From contig NZ_PCOZ01000002.1 in the NCBI RefSeq assembly GCF_002979555.1, positions 124,001 to 188,000 of the forward strand: a DNA stretch of 64,000 bases, written 5' to 3'. Each line of letters begins with the position of its first letter. Within the stretch, counting starts at the first letter, position 1. Positions 47,399 to 55,502 of the stretch are shown piece by piece. The notes under the pieces are model-generated. The model saw only the letters and a program-made list of their open reading frames with translations, was not told where the DNA came from and ran no database searches. The DNA comes from Pseudomonas sp. MYb60. GTDB lineage: Bacteria; Pseudomonadota; Gammaproteobacteria; Pseudomonadales; Pseudomonadaceae. A program made the position numbers and the translations under genes.

Positions 47399-48758
47399 AC
47401 CGCTGAAACTCGCTGTGGTCGGCCATACCAATGTGGGCAAGACCTCGCTGCTGCGCACCCTGACCCGCGACGTGGGCTTCGGCGAAGTCTCCCATCGCCC
47501 CAGCACCACGCGGCATGTAGAGGGCGCCCGGTTATCCGTGGACGGCGAAGCCTTGCTGGAGCTGTACGACACGCCGGGACTTGAAGATGCCATCGCCCTG
47601 CTCGATTACCTCGAGCGCCTGGACCGCCCTGGCGAACGCCTCGACGGCCCGGCCCGCTTGGCACGGTTCCTCGACGGCAGCGAAGCACGCCAGCGTTTCG
47701 AACAGGAGGCGAAGGTGCTGCGCCAGTTGCTGGCGTCGGATGCGGGCCTGTATGTGATCGACGCCCGCGAGCCGGTGCTGGCCAAATACCGCGACGAGCT
47801 GCAAGTGCTGGCCAGTTGCGGCAAACCGTTGCTGCCGGTGCTCAATTTCGTCAGCAGCAGCGACCACCGCGAGCCGGACTGGCGCGAAGCCCTGGCGCGC
47901 CTGGGCCTGCACGCGCTGGTGCGCTTCGACAGCGTCGCGCCGCCGGAAGATGGCGAACGCCGGCTGTATGAAAGCCTTGCGCTGTTGCTGGAAAATGCCC
48001 GGCCGCAGTTGGAACGGCTGATTCTCGATCAGGAGGCTCAGCGCCAGGCCCGCCAGCACAGCGCCGCGCGGTTGATCGCCGAGCTGTTGATCGACTGCGC
48101 TGCCTGCCGCCGCAGTGTGCTCACCGAAGATGAACAACACGCCATCGGCGACCTGCGCAAAGCCGTGCGTCAACGCGAACAGAAATGCGTGGAAGCCCTG
48201 CTCAAACTCTTCGGCTTCCGCCCCCAGGACGCCGCCGCCAGCGACCTGCCTTTGCTCGACGGGCGTTGGGGCGATGACCTGTTCAACCCGGAAACCCTCA
48301 AGCAACTCGGCGTGCGCGTTGGCGGCGGCATCGCCGCAGGCGCAGCGGCCGGTGCGGGGGTGGATTTGCTGGTCGGTGGATTAACGCTGGGCGCCGCCGC
48401 CATCGCCGGTGCGATTGCCGGTGGCGCGCTGCAAACCGCCCGCAGTTACGGCAGCCGGTTGCTGGGCAAAATCAAAGGCCAGCGAGAGTTGACAGTCGAC
48501 GACAGCGTGTTGCGCCTGCTTGCCCTGCGCCAGCGCCAGTTGCTCAAGGCCCTGAACCTGCGCGGGCATGCGGCGATGCACAGCATCAAGGTCGACACGC
48601 CGCAGGACAAGACCTGGCGCGAAGGCAAGTTGCCGGACGCCCTGCACAAGGCCCGCGCCCATCCGCAATGGTCGTCCCTCAACCCTCACGCCAGGTTGAG
48701 CCAGGCCGAGCGCCAGGAACAGGTCGAAGCCCTGGCCCAGCGCCTCGACGAAACCTAA
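47391..48758 (+). CDS. DUF3482 GTPase
   Basis: A 455-residue protein with an N-terminal GTPase domain: G1 'VVGHTNVGKTSLLRTL' (10-25), G3 'YDTPGLED' (about 60), and a probable NxxS/S-type G4 near 'PVLNFVSSSDH'. The C-terminal half is DUF3482 and contains a glycine-rich hydrophobic stretch at about 308-345 ('GGGIAAGAAAGAGVDLLVGG') that looks membrane-active. It overlaps the DUF2868 gene at the start by 8 bases and the convergent HD gene at the end by 4. Role unknown. Confidence 0.82.
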   Translation: MTKPLKLAVVGHTNVGKTSLLRTLTRDVGFGEVSHRPSTTRHVEGARLSVDGEALLELYDTPGLEDAIALLDYLERLDRPGERLDGPARLARFLDGSEARQRFEQEAKVLRQLLASDAGLYVIDAREPVLAKYRDELQVLASCGKPLLPVLNFVSSSDHREPDWREALARLGLHALVRFDSVAPPEDGERRLYESLALLLENARPQLERLILDQEAQRQARQHSAARLIAELLIDCAACRRSVLTEDEQHAIGDLRKAVRQREQKCVEALLKLFGFRPQDAAASDLPLLDGRWGDDLFNPETLKQLGVRVGGGIAAGAAAGAGVDLLVGGLTLGAAAIAGAIAGGALQTARSYGSRLLGKIKGQRELTVDDSVLRLLALRQRQLLKALNLRGHAAMHSIKVDTPQDKTWREGKLPDALHKARAHPQWSSLNPHARLSQAERQEQVEALAQRLDET

Positions 48759-49312
48759 GCCGCCAACACCTGCCGCGCCTTGGCCTTGAGGACCTCCAGG
48801 TCGAGCAGCGGCACGTGCATAGCCTTGGCCTGCTCGTCCCAATGACGCAGGCGCAGGCTCACCGCACACAGCGGGTCCTGTTCGAAGGCGTGGGCTTCTT
48901 CGGCGCTCATCACGCCGCCCTGATAGCCCAAGGTGCGGCGGCTGGCTTCGCTCAAACGCGCGTAGTAGTCCGGCTGGCAGAACGTCAGGTAGCGCTTGGC
49001 TTGCACGTGATATTCCACCAGCCTGGCCACACGCTCGCTGAAACCTGCGCGGCGCAGATAATCGGCCCCCAGGCGTTCATGGCTGACCACGCCATAACCG
49101 CCCATGTTCTCGTGGCCATCGCCGCACAGATGCCCGATATCGTGGAAGAATGCCGCCAGCACCACTTCATCGTCAAAGCCCTCGGCCATCGCGCACTGCG
49201 CGGCCTGGGACATGTGCTCGATCTGCGACACCGGCTCGCCGATGTAATCCGCCGCCCCGTAGCGCTCGTACAGGCCGAACACCTCGGCAATCGCGTGCTC
49301 GGGGCTGATCAT
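48755..49312 (-). CDS. PhnZ-like HD-domain oxygenase for phosphonate breakdown
   Basis: A 185-residue HD-domain protein. Metal ligands expected of PhnZ are visible: H33, H57-D58, H78, H102 and D159. The lid pair Y23/E26 ('DYIGEPVSQIEH') and phosphonate-binding K106 ('YHVQAKRYL') are also in place. PhnZ is a mixed-valence diiron oxygenase that splits (R)-2-amino-1-hydroxyethylphosphonate to glycine and phosphate. I prefer ATG 49312 because it overlaps the FAD gene stop (ATGA). Its usual partner PhnY is not next to it. Function is inferred from residues and neighbours. Confidence 0.85.
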   Translation of the reverse strand: MISPEHAIAEVFGLYERYGAADYIGEPVSQIEHMSQAAQCAMAEGFDDEVVLAAFFHDIGHLCGDGHENMGGYGVVSHERLGADYLRRAGFSERVARLVEYHVQAKRYLTFCQPDYYARLSEASRRTLGYQGGVMSAEEAHAFEQDPLCAVSLRLRHWDEQAKAMHVPLLDLEVLKAKARQVLAA

Positions 49313-50442
49313 GCCGCGCCCCACAATGCGTTGATATTGCGCTCGGCCAGCGCCGGCCCGACGCTCATGCCCACGCCGGTGTGCATCAACGCCGCGCTCA
49401 CCCCCGGCGCGACACGCAGGAACGAAAACGGCCCCGGCCCGCGTGAGCCGTACACACCCTGCCAGCGCTCAACGACCTGAATGTTGCAACCCAGGGTCTG
49501 CTCGGCCAGTTCGATCATCCAGTCATCGACGTGCTCGGCGTTGAACGGCGACGCATCGCGGCCGTAATCGTGGGAATCGCCGATGATCAGATCGCCATGG
49601 GGCGTCGGGCTGATCAGCAGGTGAATGCCGTGTTCGTGCAGGTGCGGGGCTTCGCGCAGGATCTGTGCCTGCACCGGTGCAGCCTCGGGCAAATCGGCGA
49701 ACGCGCCGTAATGCACGCAGCTGAGACCGGTGAGCAAGGCGTGTTGCAGGTTCAAGTTGACGGTGGGCCGCGCACGCAGCATTTGCAGGCGACAAATACT
49801 CGGGTTGAGTTCGGCCATCGCCTCGGCCAGCAGGGTTTGATAGTCGTGGCCGGAGCACACGATGATTTGCCCGCCGCGAAAGCTGCCCGCCGTGCTGTGC
49901 ACCAGGCCCGGCTCGACGTCGCGCACCAGGGTGGAGAAATGAAACTCCACGTTCAATTCACTGCTCAGGTAGCTGATCAGCGCCGGGATCGCTTCGCGCG
50001 AATACAGCTGCTGGTCGTCCTTGCCGTGCAACGCAGCGCGATGATGGCGGAACTGGCCGCCATACAGATCCTTCATCGCCGCGCCTTGCAGCAGCTCGAC
50101 GTTGTAGCCGTGCTCTTGGGCGCGACCGGCGCAGAATGCTTCGAGCAGGTGCTCTTCGGCTTCGGTGCGCGCGAACAGGTAGGCACCATTACGCTTGAGC
50201 TGCAGGCCGGCGACCTGGGCCCAATGGCCCCAGATGGCACGGCTTTCACGCGCCAGGTCGAGCATGGGTCCCGGTGGCTGGCCGGTGACCAGGGCCTGGC
50301 CGAAGTTGCGGACCGAGGCGCCGAGCGGCGTGGCGCTGCGTTCGAAGACCTTGACCTTGAGGCCGCGTTTGGCGGCGGCAAAGGCGTGGGACAGGCCGAG
50401 GATGCCGGCGCCGATGATCAGTAGGTCACTCTGTTGCGTCAT
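49309..50442 (-). CDS. FAD-dependent oxidoreductase of phosphonate clusters (TIGR03364-like)
   Basis: A 377-residue DAO-fold flavoprotein. The FAD loop is 'LLIIGAGILGLSHAFAAAKR' (about 7-26). It resembles the FAD oxidoreductases that recur in phosphonate operons. Some of these have been reported to oxidise N-alkylated aminoethylphosphonate, which would yield aldehyde or AEP products. The start is ATG 50442. It overlaps the HD gene by 4 bases and is separated from the transporter genes by a REPIN. The substrate is not decided from sequence. Confidence 0.82.
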   Translation of the reverse strand: MTQQSDLLIIGAGILGLSHAFAAAKRGLKVKVFERSATPLGASVRNFGQALVTGQPPGPMLDLARESRAIWGHWAQVAGLQLKRNGAYLFARTEAEEHLLEAFCAGRAQEHGYNVELLQGAAMKDLYGGQFRHHRAALHGKDDQQLYSREAIPALISYLSSELNVEFHFSTLVRDVEPGLVHSTAGSFRGGQIIVCSGHDYQTLLAEAMAELNPSICRLQMLRARPTVNLNLQHALLTGLSCVHYGAFADLPEAAPVQAQILREAPHLHEHGIHLLISPTPHGDLIIGDSHDYGRDASPFNAEHVDDWMIELAEQTLGCNIQVVERWQGVYGSRGPGPFSFLRVAPGVSAALMHTGVGMSVGPALAERNINALWGAA

Positions 50443-50459
50443 GGATTGATGCTCTCCCC

Positions 50460-50559
50460 TGTAGGAGCGAGCTTGCTCGCGAAGCACTCAAGAACACCGC
50501 GTTTAACCAGACAGCACGCGTTATCGTTGACGTTTTTCGCGAGCAAGCTCGCTCCTACA
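50460..50559. repeat. REPIN of the GAGCGAGCTTGCTCGC type
   Basis: TGTAGGAGCGAGCTTGCTCG with inverted partner, about 100 bases, inside the phosphonate cluster between the binding-protein gene and the FAD gene, all on one strand. It may lower expression of the catabolic pair relative to the transporter. Confidence 0.92.
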
Positions 50560-50575
50560 GTGACGGTGATGAAGG

Positions 50576-51589
50576 TTATTGTTTTTCCGACTTGCCGTCA
50601 TAGCGCTTGCGCCACTCAGCCAGAATGCTGTCGCGGTTCTTCGAGGCCCAGGCAAAGTCGTTCTTGATCAGGCGCTGCTCATAGTCCGCCGGCAATTCGG
50701 TCTGCGGCTTGGCGATGCCCGGCTGGGCGAGCACGGCAAAGTTGTCCTTGTACAGGTCCATCGCGGCGGCGCTGGCGGAGAAGTCCGCGAGTTTTTTCGC
50801 TGCGTCGACGTGGGCGGTGCCTTTCATCACCGCCGTCGCTTCGATATCCCAACCCAGGCCTTCCTTCGGCAGGATGATGTCCAGCGGCGCGCCCTGGCGC
50901 TTGAGCTGTACGGCCGGGTATTCGAACGAAATCCCGATCGGGAACTCGCCCGACGCCGCCAACTTGCACGGCTTGGAACCGGAATGCACGTACTGGCCGA
51001 TGTTCTGGTGCAGGTCGTCCATGTACTGCCAGCCCTGCTTTTCGCCGTAGGTCTGCAACCAGGCGCTGACGTCCAGGAAACCGGTGCCGGACGAAGCCGG
51101 GTTGGGCATCACGATCTTGCCCTTGTACTCAGGCTTGGTCAGGTCCTGCCAGCTCACCGGCTTGGTCAGGCCCTGTTTTTCGGCTTCGACGGTGTTGAAG
51201 CAGATGGTCGCGGCCCACACGTCCATGCCGACCCAGGCCGGGGGGTTGGCAGGGTCACGGTAGTTCTTGCCGATCTTGTCCAGATCCTTGGGGGCGTAGT
51301 TGTCCAACATGCCTTGCTGATCGAGGATCGCCAGGCTGGAAGCGGCCAGCCCCCACACCGCGTCGGCCTGCGGACGGTCTTTCTCGGCCAGCAGCTTGGC
51401 GGTGATGATGCCGGTGGAGTCACGCACCCACTTGATCTCGATGTTCGGGTTGGCTTGTTCGAAAGCCTTTTTGTAGCTCTTCAACTGCTCGGCTTCGAGG
51501 GCCGTGTACACGGTGAGCTCGGTCTTGGCGAAGGCATTCAGGCTGAATGCGGTGAGTACGGCAGCGACCAGCGCCAGGGGCTTGAACAT
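50576..51589 (-). CDS. Aminoethylphosphonate-type ABC transporter substrate-binding protein
   Basis: A 337-residue periplasmic binding protein with a signal peptide (1-21, ending LNAFA). It belongs to the iron/phosphonate-like family: 'LTVYTALEAEQLKSYKKAFE', 'IEIKWVRDSTGIITAKLLAE', 'VMPNPASSGTGFLDVSAWLQ', 'GEFPIGISFEYPAVQLKRQG'. The set matches the aminoethylphosphonate binding protein of PhnSTUV/AepXVW-type clusters. It follows the permease gene by 23 bases. Ligand is inferred from cluster context. Confidence 0.88.
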   Translation of the reverse strand: MFKPLALVAAVLTAFSLNAFAKTELTVYTALEAEQLKSYKKAFEQANPNIEIKWVRDSTGIITAKLLAEKDRPQADAVWGLAASSLAILDQQGMLDNYAPKDLDKIGKNYRDPANPPAWVGMDVWAATICFNTVEAEKQGLTKPVSWQDLTKPEYKGKIVMPNPASSGTGFLDVSAWLQTYGEKQGWQYMDDLHQNIGQYVHSGSKPCKLAASGEFPIGISFEYPAVQLKRQGAPLDIILPKEGLGWDIEATAVMKGTAHVDAAKKLADFSASAAAMDLYKDNFAVLAQPGIAKPQTELPADYEQRLIKNDFAWASKNRDSILAEWRKRYDGKSEKQ

Positions 51590-51612
51590 CTAACACCTCC
51601 TTCAAGGATGAT

Positions 51613-53325
51613 TTATTGGCCTGGCGCGCTCTGGCGCCAGGCTTGGGAGCGGCGCAGCGCGCCACGTGAGGCCCACGCCAGCAGCAGCGAGACGCCGGCC
51701 GATGTGAACAGGATCAGGGTCGACATGGCCGCCGCGCCGCCGACGTTGCCGGCGTCGTCCATGTTCAGCACGGCGACGGCGGCGAGGATGGTGTCGGGGC
51801 TGTAGAGGAAGATCGCGGCGGACACGGTGGTCATCGCCGACACGAACAGGTAGCGCAGGATGTCCAGCAGCGCCGGCAGGCAAATCGGCACCGTCACCTT
51901 CAGGAAATGCCGGTAAAGCGGCGCCTTGAGGGACAGCGCAGCGGCTTCGAACTCGGCGTCCAGCTGGCGCAGGGCGGTGGTGGCGGTCATCTGCGCGGTG
52001 GTCAAATAGTGAGCAATGGTGCACACAACCAGCAGGGTCATGCTCCCGTAGAACACGTGCAGCGGGTTGCCGTTGAGGTTGAAAAAGAACACGTAGCCCA
52101 ACCCCAGCACCAACCCCGGCACGGCCATCGGCACGAAACTGAGCAGGCGCAACGCCAGGTTGAGGCCTTTCTGGCCCTTGGTCTTCTCCATCAGGTAGGC
52201 GCCGGTGAAGATCAGCACGCTGCCGATCAACGCGGTGCACACGGCCAGCGTCAGGCTGTTGCGATAGGCCAACCAACCGCCGCCGGCGGTGTCTTCAAAC
52301 TGATAGTGGTTCAGCGACAGCGACAGGTTGTACGGCCAGAACTTCACCAGCGAGGAATACACCGCCATGCCGAACACCAGCAGCAACACCGCGCAGATCA
52401 ACAGCACGATGGCCAGGTAGCAGGCGTCCCTCGACCGCGACGGCAGCGGTTGGAAGACCTGGGCACGGCCGCTCATCGAACCGCCCTGGCGGCGGCGCAA
52501 CCACGCATCCACGCCAAAGCTGAACAGCGCCGGTAGCAGCAAGACCATGCCGATCAACGCACCGCGGCCGAACTGTTGCTGGCCCACCACGGCTTTATAG
52601 GCTTCGAGCGCCAGCACCTGGTAATCACCGCCGACCACCACGGGCACGCCGAAGTCGGTGATGGTCAGGGTAAACACCAGGCAAAACGCGGCGAATACCG
52701 CCTGGCGCGTGGCCGGCCAGGTGATGCTGCGAAACGCTCGGGCCGGGCTGGCGCCCATGCTTGAGGCCGCGTCGAACAATCGCGCATCCGCCAGGGACAG
52801 CGCCGACAGCAGAATCATCAAGGCGTGTGGGAAGGTGTAGATCACCTCACCCAGCACAATGCCCCAGAAGCCGTAGATATTCTCCGAAAGCAGCCCGCGC
52901 AGCATGCCCTGGTTGCCGAACAGGTAGACCAGCGCAATGCCCGGCAACATCGACGGCGCCATCAACGGCAACAACGACAGGCCACGCCAGATAGGCTTGC
53001 CGGGGATCAGCGTGCGCTGCAAGGCGTAGGCGAACAGGTAGGCCAGCGGTACGACGATGGCCGCGACGCTGAGGGACACTTTCAGGCTGTTGCCGAGCAG
53101 CCAGTGGAAGTTGGCGCTGGTGATCAATGCCTGTGCGGCGACCAGCCCTCCGCCCTGCCCGGCTTCACTGCTGAAGCCGCGCCAGAAGATCGCCAGCAAA
53201 GGCAGCAACACCGCAAGGCCCAGCAACAACAGCCAGAGCACTTTGCCACCGACCACGAACACGCGGTCGCCCCATTCAGCGCGGGACACCGGACGTGCGG
53301 CAGGCAATGTCATGACCGCGGCCAT
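51613..53325 (-). CDS. Aminoethylphosphonate-type ABC transporter permease (two fused domains)
   Basis: A 570-residue permease with two homologous halves, each with about six membrane helices and an EAA-type loop. First half: 'DAASSMGASPARAFRSITWP'. Second half: 'EFEAAALSLKAPLYRHFLKV'. The fused two-domain form is that of the 2-aminoethylphosphonate permeases and of Fe3+ SfuB-like permeases. I use ATG 53325, one base after the ATPase gene stop, which gives a full N-terminus; 53313 is a second choice. Confidence 0.88.
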   Translation of the reverse strand: MAAVMTLPAARPVSRAEWGDRVFVVGGKVLWLLLLGLAVLLPLLAIFWRGFSSEAGQGGGLVAAQALITSANFHWLLGNSLKVSLSVAAIVVPLAYLFAYALQRTLIPGKPIWRGLSLLPLMAPSMLPGIALVYLFGNQGMLRGLLSENIYGFWGIVLGEVIYTFPHALMILLSALSLADARLFDAASSMGASPARAFRSITWPATRQAVFAAFCLVFTLTITDFGVPVVVGGDYQVLALEAYKAVVGQQQFGRGALIGMVLLLPALFSFGVDAWLRRRQGGSMSGRAQVFQPLPSRSRDACYLAIVLLICAVLLLVFGMAVYSSLVKFWPYNLSLSLNHYQFEDTAGGGWLAYRNSLTLAVCTALIGSVLIFTGAYLMEKTKGQKGLNLALRLLSFVPMAVPGLVLGLGYVFFFNLNGNPLHVFYGSMTLLVVCTIAHYLTTAQMTATTALRQLDAEFEAAALSLKAPLYRHFLKVTVPICLPALLDILRYLFVSAMTTVSAAIFLYSPDTILAAVAVLNMDDAGNVGGAAAMSTLILFTSAGVSLLLAWASRGALRRSQAWRQSAPGQ

Positions 53326-53326
53326 C

Positions 53327-54391
53327 TCAGGCAAACACCTGCAGGCTGCGCGGCGGCAGGGCCACCCAGATGTCCTGGGCGCCCAGGCGTGGCATGGCTT
53401 CCGGGGCCAGTTCGGCCAACAGCGCGTGACCGGGCAGGTGCTCCAGCTCAAAACTCATGCGGCAGCGGTTGCCGAGAAAGGTGATCTCGCGGACCTTGGC
53501 CGGGAACAGGTTTTCCTCATGCACCGGCGGGTTGACGCTGATGGCTTCCGGGCGGCAAAAGAGACGCCCGGAGCTGGCCACGCCGGCATCGTCGGCCAGG
53601 CGCATGTTCATCCCGCCGACCTGGGCGTGACTGGCACTGTTGCGGCTGAACGGCAACCAATTGCCCTGGCCGACAAACTCGGCCACGAACGGTGTGGCTG
53701 GGCGGTCGTAGATTTCCTGGGGCGTGGCATATTGCTCGACCTTGCCGTTGTTCATCACCGCAATACGGTCGGCCATCAACATGGCTTCGTCCTGGTTGTG
53801 GGTGACCATCAGCGTGGTAATGCCCAGGCGACGTTGCAGTTGGCGCAGTTCGGTACACAGGTGCTCACGCACGCGGGCGTCGAGGGCCGACATCGGTTCA
53901 TCCAGCAGCAACAACGACGGCGCGGGCGCCAGTGCGCGGGCCAGGGCGACCCGTTGCTGCTGGCCGCCGGAGAGTTGGCCGGGGTACTTCTTTTCGCTGC
54001 CGACCAGGCCGACCAGTTCCAGCATCTGGCCGACACGCTGGCGTACTTCATCGCGACCGTTGCCGATGAGGCCGTAGGCGATGTTCGCTTCGACGCTCAG
54101 GTTGGGAAACAGCGCGTAGGACTGGAACAGAATGCCGTAGTCCCGCGCCTGGGGTGGCAGTCGGGAAACGTCGCGGTTGCCCAAGTACAGCTCACCGCTG
54201 TCCTGGCGCTCCAGGCCGGCAATGCAGCGCAACAAGGTGGTCTTGCCACAGCCGGACGGACCCAGCAGGCACACCAACTCGCCGGCGGCGACGTCCAGGG
54301 ACACGTTGTCCAGCGCAGTGAAGGCGCCGAAGCGCTTCTGCACGTTGCGCACCTTCATCGGCGCGCCGGGTTGGGTCAGGGCTGTGTTCAT
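53327..54391 (-). CDS. Aminoethylphosphonate-type ABC transporter ATPase
   Basis: A 354-residue ABC ATPase. Walker A is GPSGCGKTT (44-52), the Q-loop is 'YGILFQSYALFPNLSV', the signature is LSGGQQQR (140-147), and Walker B is LLLLDEPMSALD (160-171). The C-terminal TOBE region follows. This ATPase type (PotA/FbpC-like) occurs with AEP transporters. First gene of the transporter operon; the 247-base gap to lysR must hold its promoter. Confidence 0.9.
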   Translation of the reverse strand: MNTALTQPGAPMKVRNVQKRFGAFTALDNVSLDVAAGELVCLLGPSGCGKTTLLRCIAGLERQDSGELYLGNRDVSRLPPQARDYGILFQSYALFPNLSVEANIAYGLIGNGRDEVRQRVGQMLELVGLVGSEKKYPGQLSGGQQQRVALARALAPAPSLLLLDEPMSALDARVREHLCTELRQLQRRLGITTLMVTHNQDEAMLMADRIAVMNNGKVEQYATPQEIYDRPATPFVAEFVGQGNWLPFSRNSASHAQVGGMNMRLADDAGVASSGRLFCRPEAISVNPPVHEENLFPAKVREITFLGNRCRMSFELEHLPGHALLAELAPEAMPRLGAQDIWVALPPRSLQVFA

Positions 54392-54530
54392 GGGGACACC
54401 TCATCAAACGAATGAGGGCCATGCTAGGGAGGGAATGCGTCGAGGGTGTGGCAGGAAGGCAAAAGGCAGTGATAGTGGTATTTGTGGATTTGGGTTGAGG
54501 TCACAAAGGTGTGGTGTGTGGACTACCGCT

Positions 54531-54614
54531 ATCGGGGGCAAGCCCCCTCCCACATTTGACCGAGTTCCCACAGGGGAATGGGGTCAAAAGGTGGGAGGGG
54601 GCTTGCCCCCGATG
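54531..54614. repeat. REPIN-like pair of the GGGAGGGGGCTTGCCCCC type
   Basis: ATCGGGGGCAAGCCCCCTCC and an inverted GTGGGAGGGGGCTTGCCCCC are 80 bases apart between lysR and the ATPase gene, on the same strand. It likely separates the regulator transcript from the transporter transcript. The rest of the 247-base gap (54392-54530) holds no ORF I can support. Confidence 0.85.
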
Positions 54615-54638
54615 AGGCCCGGAAGGCCACCCACCCCT

Positions 54639-55502
54639 TCAGATCGGCGACATTTCCTGCGCCAACCCCAGAAACGCCGCTGGCAGCCGCGCCGACTTTC
54701 GTTCTTTCAAGCAGTACAGATATTCCGCAATCTGCGGCGCATTTTCGATGGTCAACACCCTTAACTGTGGGTCATGGGGCACTTCCTGGCGGGCGATGAT
54801 GCTGATCCCTATGTTGCGCAAAACCGCCTCACGGATTGACTCGCGGCTGCCGATTTCCAGCAACGGGCCGTAGCTCACGTTGGCGCTTTGCAAGAGCTCT
54901 TCGGTCAGGCGTCGCGTGGTTGAGCCTGCTTCGCGCATCAGCAGGGTGTGCCCGGCCAGCGCCCCCAGCGGCACGTGATCCAGCTTGGCCAACGGGTGAT
55001 TGCGGTGCACCGCCAGCACCAGGGGATCGGTGCCTAATACACGGCGGATCAAGCGCGGGTCTTCCAGCAGTTGGGAGGACGCGGCGACATCGACGCGATA
55101 ATCGTCCAGCGCCTCGAGCACCTGCTGGGAGTTGCCGATTTCCACCGACACTTCCACCTGCGGCAGGCGCTCGCGGAAGGCTTTGACCAGGTCGAGGATG
55201 TAATACGGCGCCGTCGCGGCAATCCTCAATGCGCCCTGGACCTGGCCGTTGTTGCGCAGGAAAAACTCGATGTCCGCTTCCTGCTGCAACAGTGCCTTGA
55301 CCATCGGCAGCAGCCGCGCGCCTTCGTCGCTGACGGTGAGGCGGCGTCCGCCACGGTAGAACAATTCAACCCCGTACTGGCTTTCGAGGTTGCGAATCTG
55401 GGTAGTGACCGTGGGCTGGCTGAGGCCGAGTTTTTTCGCCGCCTGGGTAATGCTGCCCAGGCGCGCGACCATGAAAAAAGCCTTCAACTCGGCACTCAGC
55501 AC
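54639..55502 (-). CDS. LysR-type regulator of phosphonate catabolism
   Basis: A 287-residue LysR protein. The helix-turn-helix is 'GSITQAAKKLGLSQPTVTTQ' (16-35). The rest is a periplasmic-binding-like effector domain. It resembles the LysR regulators tied to aminoethylphosphonate clusters. It has a GTG start at 55502 with GAGGAA 5 bases before it. It starts 16 bases after the cadA stop on the same strand, so it may be read from the metal ATPase promoter. The target is inferred from neighbours. Confidence 0.85.
   Translation of the reverse strand: MLSAELKAFFMVARLGSITQAAKKLGLSQPTVTTQIRNLESQYGVELFYRGGRRLTVSDEGARLLPMVKALLQQEADIEFFLRNNGQVQGALRIAATAPYYILDLVKAFRERLPQVEVSVEIGNSQQVLEALDDYRVDVAASSQLLEDPRLIRRVLGTDPLVLAVHRNHPLAKLDHVPLGALAGHTLLMREAGSTTRRLTEELLQSANVSYGPLLEIGSRESIREAVLRNIGISIIARQEVPHDPQLRVLTIENAPQIAEYLYCLKERKSARLPAAFLGLAQEMSPI

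Follow-up and report, generated by a model that had tools for sequence, protein, structure and literature searches.

A six-gene aminophosphonate cluster in Pseudomonas sp. MYb60, probably a satellite of an unlinked phosphonatase pathway

Described systems and the MYb60 cluster

The aminophosphonate cluster treated here lies in a 64,000-nucleotide stretch of the Pseudomonas sp. MYb60 genome (contig NZ_PCOZ01000002.1, positions 124,001 to 188,000; hereafter, the window). Among its closest described relatives are the phosphonatase clusters reported from Achromobacter in 2024, which contain genes for HpnW and PhnHD (PMC11203657; all papers are cited for the excerpts consulted). The same excerpts mention pseudomonads in which TIGR03276 proteins, PhnW, and PhnX occur in the absence of PhnY*, and leave open whether HpnW feeds the phosphonatase or PhnHD. 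TIGR03364 is the family of PbfD1, and PbfD enzymes were described by Zangelmi et al. in 2023 as oxidizing N-methyl-2-aminoethylphosphonate (N-methyl-AEP) to phosphonoacetaldehyde, the substrate of PhnX; PbfD2 also takes 2-aminoethylphosphonate (AEP) to phosphonoacetaldehyde with fair efficiency, and these enzymes are able to replace PhnW (PMC10590968). PhnZ is specific for (R)-alpha-hydroxyphosphonates, TmpB acts on the trimethyl form, and GmPhnZ acts on hydroxymethylphosphonate (PMC10574752). Furthermore, (R)-1-hydroxy-2-aminoethylphosphonate [(R)-HAEP] is not properly processed by PhnW-PhnX; PhnZ homologues accompany 15 of 1,186 phnWX clusters and 24 of 75 phnWAY clusters, where, in the excerpt consulted, PbfA, the other (R)-HAEP enzyme, never stands alongside them (PMC8154272). 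In pseudomonads, AEP operons are often fragmented over the genome (PMC8316502).

The analysis offers a comparative answer to the question, left open in 2024, of which roles HpnW/PbfD and PhnHD play in the absence of PhnY* (PMC11203657). In MYb60, the two enzymes probably form two parallel branches, in which the flavin adenine dinucleotide (FAD) enzyme PbfD feeds a PhnX encoded at another site and the HD oxygenase cleaves imported (R)-HAEP without a hydroxylase. The substrates of these particular proteins are predicted from the observed gene content, residues, and co-occurrence. Both branch ideas are already in print in outline; what is new is a genome- and genus-wide comparative test, which favors parallel branches, and the observation that PhnZ-side oxygenases in the sampled loci have PbfD as a neighbor more often than PhnY*. 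The cluster consists of six genes at positions 48755 to 55502 of the window, all on the minus strand, and two inverted repeats:

48755 to 49312, minus strand: HD-domain mixed-valent diiron oxygenase on the PhnZ side of its family, predicted (R)-HAEP dioxygenase (TIGR03276, match to 4mlm, tree, residues)
49309 to 50442, minus strand: PbfD-type FAD amine oxidoreductase (TIGR03364, "HpnW"), predicted to convert N-methyl-AEP/AEP to phosphonoacetaldehyde (TIGR03364, DAO domain, family function from PMC10590968)
50459 to 50560, no strand: REPIN-like inverted repeat in the gap between the binding-protein and FAD genes (25-nucleotide arms at 50459 to 50483 and 50536 to 50560, 100% complementary)
50576 to 51589, minus strand: predicted AepX-type periplasmic AEP-binding protein (TIGR03261)
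51613 to 53325, minus strand: AepW-type fused permease (TIGR03262; the listed open reading frame runs to 53451)
53327 to 54391, minus strand: AepV-type ATPase (TIGR03265)
54531 to 54613, no strand: second inverted repeat, repetitive extragenic palindrome (REP)-like, in the gap between the ATPase and regulator genes (27-nucleotide arms, 96%)
54639 to 55502, minus strand: aminoethylphosphonate-associated LysR regulator (TIGR03339)

A profile scan placed all six genes above the curated cut-offs of aminophosphonate families. The HD protein reached about 228 bits (228.4) against TIGR03276 (cut-off, 214.6), and the FAD enzyme, which also carries a DAO domain (PF01266, 124 bits), reached 445.1 against TIGR03364 (285.1). 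The binding protein scored 531.0 against TIGR03261 (392.75), the fused permease 745.2 against TIGR03262 (593.25), the ATPase 520.8 against TIGR03265 (457.7), and the regulator 422.7 against TIGR03339 (341.1). Thus, the claim of the sequence-only reading that six same-strand genes, a PhnZ-like HD protein and a FAD enzyme among them, make up a phosphonate uptake and breakdown cluster held throughout. The binding protein, fused permease, and ATPase constitute an AepXVW-type importer, for which AEP binding is predicted. The scanned flanking genes encode a DUF3482 GTPase-like protein and a metal P-type ATPase, and the nearest named loci are from Pseudomonas (P. costantinii, L124).

The Achromobacter clusters share with MYb60 the TIGR03364 and TIGR03276 proteins, importer genes (phnS/U/T), a LysR gene nearby, a phnW located elsewhere, and, in the excerpts, the lack of PhnY*; they differ in that phnX lies inside the operon and in that their HD protein is reported to be 30% identical to PhnZ (PMC11203657). 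The AepXVW locus of P. putida BIRD-1, compared by description and not by sequence, has an importer named alike, but AepX induction is PhoBR-dependent there (PMC8316502), whereas the consensus (up to 3 mismatches) found no PHO box in the MYb60 cluster and one match in the window, at position 2224, with 3.3 expected by chance.

The unlinked phosphonatase pathway and the two enzymes

The window corresponds to G000:C12:124001-188000 in a 5.58-Mb assembly rated 100% complete. A genome-wide search located phnW (563.8 bits; cut-off, 400.8) and phnX (337.4 bits; cut-off, 220) next to each other at G000:C42:268444-270332, on a contig different from that of the cluster. The genome therefore encodes the core phosphonatase pathway, at a site unlinked to the cluster. 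We took PhnY* to be a member of the PhyH family (PF05721), of which the genome contains no match at E 0.001; hydroxylases of the TauD/TfdA type (TmpA type) were not searched for. The sequence-only reading had noted that phnW, phnX, and phnY were not beside the cluster, which was borne out, and had concluded that the HD enzyme must either use an unlinked PhnY or be supplied by the FAD enzyme in a different way. The genome-wide search it had called for thus recovered phnW and phnX and no PhyH-family phnY, and an unlinked PhnY* was rejected as the HD partner. The gene set behind that dilemma stands, but the dilemma itself does not, as a third option, direct action of the HD enzyme on imported (R)-HAEP, fits better.

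The HD protein of the window resembles PhnZ more closely than TmpB. It matched PhnZ (4mlm) at E 6.4e-45 and TmpB (6npa) at E 7.7e-30, with 50.6% identity to the PhnZ fragment over 156 residues and 41.3% to the TmpB fragment. Against TIGR03276, it scored about 228 bits (228.5 in this comparison) and PhnZ, scored as a fragment, 178.7, the cut-off being 214.6; with the TmpB model NF049941 it remained below the cut-off (129.4 of 300 required bits). A midpoint-rooted tree of 104 rows, read as an unrooted split and not as rooted clades, placed it among 63 rows with PhnZ, separated by a branch with support 100/96 from 41 rows with TmpB. All six iron ligands (H...HD...H...H...D) are kept in the residue table, as are Y24 and E27 of the YxxE loop and K108, S126, Q133, and R158 (PhnZ numbering), the last four having roles in PhnZ. 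For the diiron ligands and the YxxE substrate loop, the roles are those given in PMC8177086. What separates the MYb60 system from that of PhnZ is the lack of a PhyH-family PhnY* in both cluster and genome by the PF05721 search. Within the tree, the Pseudomonas rows fall among Bacteroidota rows, which hints at transfer of the HD gene between phyla.

(R)-HAEP is our best guess for the substrate of the HD enzyme. There is some chance, although a minor one, that it stands alone as proposed but acts on a different alpha-hydroxyphosphonate (N-methyl-(R)-HAEP or hydroxymethylphosphonate, for example), with the role of PbfD unchanged. Substrates vary among family members, as TmpB and GmPhnZ illustrate (PMC10574752), long branches separate the Pseudomonas and Bacteroidota rows from PhnZ, and an N-methyl substrate would suit the link with an N-methyl-AEP oxidase. 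Its position on the PhnZ side and its identity to PhnZ argue against this, as does the hydroxymethylphosphonate dioxygenase model NF052439, with which it reached 112.5 of 300 required bits.

The FAD enzyme belongs to the same NCBIfam family as PbfD1 (PMC10590968), and its genome has PhnX. It differs from the PbfD enzymes of that paper in that its gene is not beside phnX, and with five TIGR03364 relatives it shares only about 30 to 36% identity.

On this reading, the cluster would serve as a satellite of a phosphonatase pathway whose genes lie at another site in the genome. The AepXVW-type importer would take up AEP and close relatives under the control of the LysR regulator, and PbfD and the HD oxygenase would act in parallel and not in series. 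PbfD would oxidize N-methyl-AEP, and perhaps AEP as well, and the resulting phosphonoacetaldehyde would be split by the unlinked PhnX into acetaldehyde and phosphate. The PhnZ-side oxygenase would convert imported (R)-HAEP and O2 to glycine and phosphate, needing no hydroxylase, and would also clear a compound that PhnW and PhnX cannot process properly. The cluster can be explained without invoking a new chemical route.

Distribution of the two enzymes in the genus

Among 199 genomes of the genus, PhnX was present in 134, PhnW in 121, PbfD in 108, and an HD protein in 117 (136 matches listed minus 19 weak ones; E < 1e-30). One HD match, in G169, consists of two pieces in different frames and was scored as present. 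Four of the 117 genomes (G041, G042, G146, and G185) were set aside as carrying another HD type and the rest were counted as window-type, the typing of these 113 having covered those fetched as loci. All 108 PbfD genomes have PhnX, against a base rate of 134 in 199. Additionally, 14 genomes have PbfD and PhnX without PhnW, in line with PbfD being able to take the place of PhnW. Among the nine such PhnW-less loci that were fetched, phnX lies within the transporter-PbfD operon in eight (L077, L083 to L085, L088 to L090, and L093), and in the ninth (L080) it is some 8 kb away.

Window-type HD and PbfD occur together in 94 genomes, HD alone in 19, PbfD alone in 14, and neither in 72, and their association is in large part due to both going with PhnX. 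Beside DUF3482, at the same chromosomal site, there are loci with HD only (e.g., L060 to L063, L065 to L070, and L094) and loci with PbfD only (e.g., L078, L079, L081, L082, L086, and L087). On a transporter tree built from the permease and binding protein of 46 loci, a selection rich in exceptions, at least 11 changes were needed for HD and 4 for PbfD, and in seven independent pairs differing in HD on supported branches, PbfD never moved alike in 200 pairings. The FAD and HD genes are therefore gained or lost separately. Furthermore, six PhnX-bearing genomes that have a window-type HD lack PbfD as well as any PhyH match, and PhyH (E 1e-6) showed no association with HD across the 199 genomes, being found in 69 of the 117 with HD and 52 of the 82 without (P = 0.56). 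Taken together, the genus evidence fits an HD enzyme with an imported alpha-hydroxyphosphonate as its substrate and no dependence on PbfD.

These distributions bear on the second possibility of the sequence-only reading, that the FAD enzyme supplies the HD enzyme. PbfD would make or leak an oxidized aminophosphonate that the HD oxygenase then cleaves, giving a second oxidative C-P cleavage without an alpha-ketoglutarate hydroxylase, an option that the excerpts of the Achromobacter paper leave open (PMC11203657). The adjacency of the two genes, which overlap by ATGA, speaks for such a sequence, and it is nevertheless very unlikely: PhnX accompanies every PbfD of the genus sample, each enzyme occurs without the other, and phosphonoacetaldehyde, the PbfD product and PhnX substrate, lacks the alpha-hydroxyl for which PhnZ is specific (PMC10574752).

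In three genomes of the genus (L057, L073, and L206), the immediate neighbor of a second, TmpB-side HD type is a distant phosphonatase-like gene, not PbfD.

Company of the oxygenase beyond the genus

From a wider collection, we examined the best 80 of at least 175 stretches encoding HD relatives, a sample that leans toward the type of the window, and counted as neighbors tblastn matches (E 1e-10) within about 8 kb, or less at contig ends. Around the 52 PhnZ-side loci, PbfD was near 36 and a phosphonatase or phosphonatase-like gene near 27, while PhyH was near or fused in 3 and a TmpA-type gene in none; around the other 28, a TmpA-type gene was near 13, PbfD near 6, and PhnW near 3. PbfD and the phosphonatase are thus commoner than PhnY* as company of PhnZ-side oxygenases in the sampled loci. 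This company keeps some functional tie between PbfD and HD alive, the simplest being that they share a substrate family and an importer. On Comamonas and Asticcacaulis plasmids, phnX-PbfD is divergent from HD. PhyH partners do occur in some PhnZ-side loci (neighbors in L122, L123, L147, and L166; a fusion in L174), so that the same enzyme type appears to work with and without PhyH. If parallel branches are correct, PhnZ-type oxygenases would often be stand-alone (R)-HAEP scavengers, and surveys in which phnZ is taken to indicate oxidative breakdown of AEP (e.g., PMC9381506) may overstate that pathway.

It is hardly credible that a non-PhyH hydroxylase elsewhere, for example a TauD/TfdA-type relative of TmpA, supplies the HD enzyme with (R)-HAEP made from AEP: a TmpB-clade HD gene (L109) does adjoin a TauD/TfdA-family gene, taken as TmpA, but relatives of that gene, near 13 of the 28 TmpB-side loci, are near none of the 52 PhnZ-side ones, and phnWX is essential for growth on AEP in P. 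putida BIRD-1 (PMC8316502), a strain that may or may not carry this HD gene.

Several observations weigh against parallel branches and a satellite role for the cluster. The two enzymes stay linked beyond chance expectation: PbfD is near HD in 42 of the 80 loci, across Pseudomonadota, Bacteroidota, and Planctomycetota, which also speaks for the FAD enzyme acting ahead of the HD enzyme. Within PhnX-bearing genomes of the genus, the HD-PbfD association persists (odds ratio, 3.6; P = 0.017, uncorrected for kinship), and the test on seven independent pairs is too small for significance, its rows being enriched in exceptions. A satellite role would not lead one to expect the intact HD genes of two genomes, G037 and G068 (L056:9261-9860 and L058:9217-9786), which have no PhnX, PhnW, or PbfD and no transporter gene beside HD; the ratio of nonsynonymous to synonymous substitution rates of these HD genes against relatives is roughly 0.09 to 0.16, their synonymous sites being nearly saturated. 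As evidence, these two genomes are ambiguous, because both have PhyH genes elsewhere and a hydroxylase may act there. The PhyH proteins of the PhnZ-side loci resemble the methylphosphonate hydroxylase model (164 to 225 of 500 required bits), and their HD partners may therefore not all be (R)-HAEP enzymes. The PbfD of the window shares only about 30% identity with a relative from Acinetobacter. Finally, the check on mutual exclusion of PbfA and HD is weak. PbfA was found in none of the 199 genus genomes with a query that passes the PbfA model and did match in a sample of 369 genomes of the class, in which 5 had PbfA, 9 had HD, and 2 had both; the HD genes of these two fall on the side of TmpB, the placement of one of them, the long-branched L121, being uncertain. 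As strict alternatives, HD and PbfA were set aside, since the genus was uninformative and the class sample weakly consistent.

Some of the wider loci deserve a separate description. A 439-amino-acid frame at L174:1172-2491, from a gammaproteobacterial metagenome-assembled genome, fuses a PhnZ-type HD domain (residues 5 to 177) to PhyH (190 to 388); a fused PhnY/PhnZ enzyme, PhoF, is known from a fungus (PMC10574752). In Bacteroidota (L153:7974-11684, from which the families were named; e.g., also L142, L144, L146, L162, and L163), HD, a TIGR03351 phosphonatase-like gene, DUF5690, and TIGR03364 recur as a group. DUF5690, a family without an assigned function, is near 25 of the 80 HD loci and, judging by gene position, may be an aminophosphonate transporter; the literature searched for the words DUF5690 and PF18943 yielded no mention. 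Loss of the catalytic lysine in these TIGR03351 neighbors, which would have pointed to a different chemistry, was rejected, as a lysine aligns in every aligned row covering the site. A close HD relative (60%) lies on a Hymenobacter plasmid (L105:8001-8597) near MFS transporter, SusC/SusD, PhoX, and sulfatase-like genes, and on a Variovorax plasmid (L108:6992-7540) the HD gene comes immediately after a run of C-P lyase and phnCDE genes.

The gene starts in the window were also reconsidered. The HD gene most likely starts at the ATG at 49312, its frame extending further to a GTG at 49324; this start overlaps the FAD stop as ATGA, which suggests translational coupling of the two genes. For the FAD gene, the ATG at 50442 is likelier than the listed GTG at 50487, which sits between the 25-nucleotide arms of the REPIN-like inverted repeat at 50459 to 50560. 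The permease is likelier to start near 53325 than at 53451, because its alignment with TIGR03262 begins only at residue 71, which corresponds to position 8 of the model.

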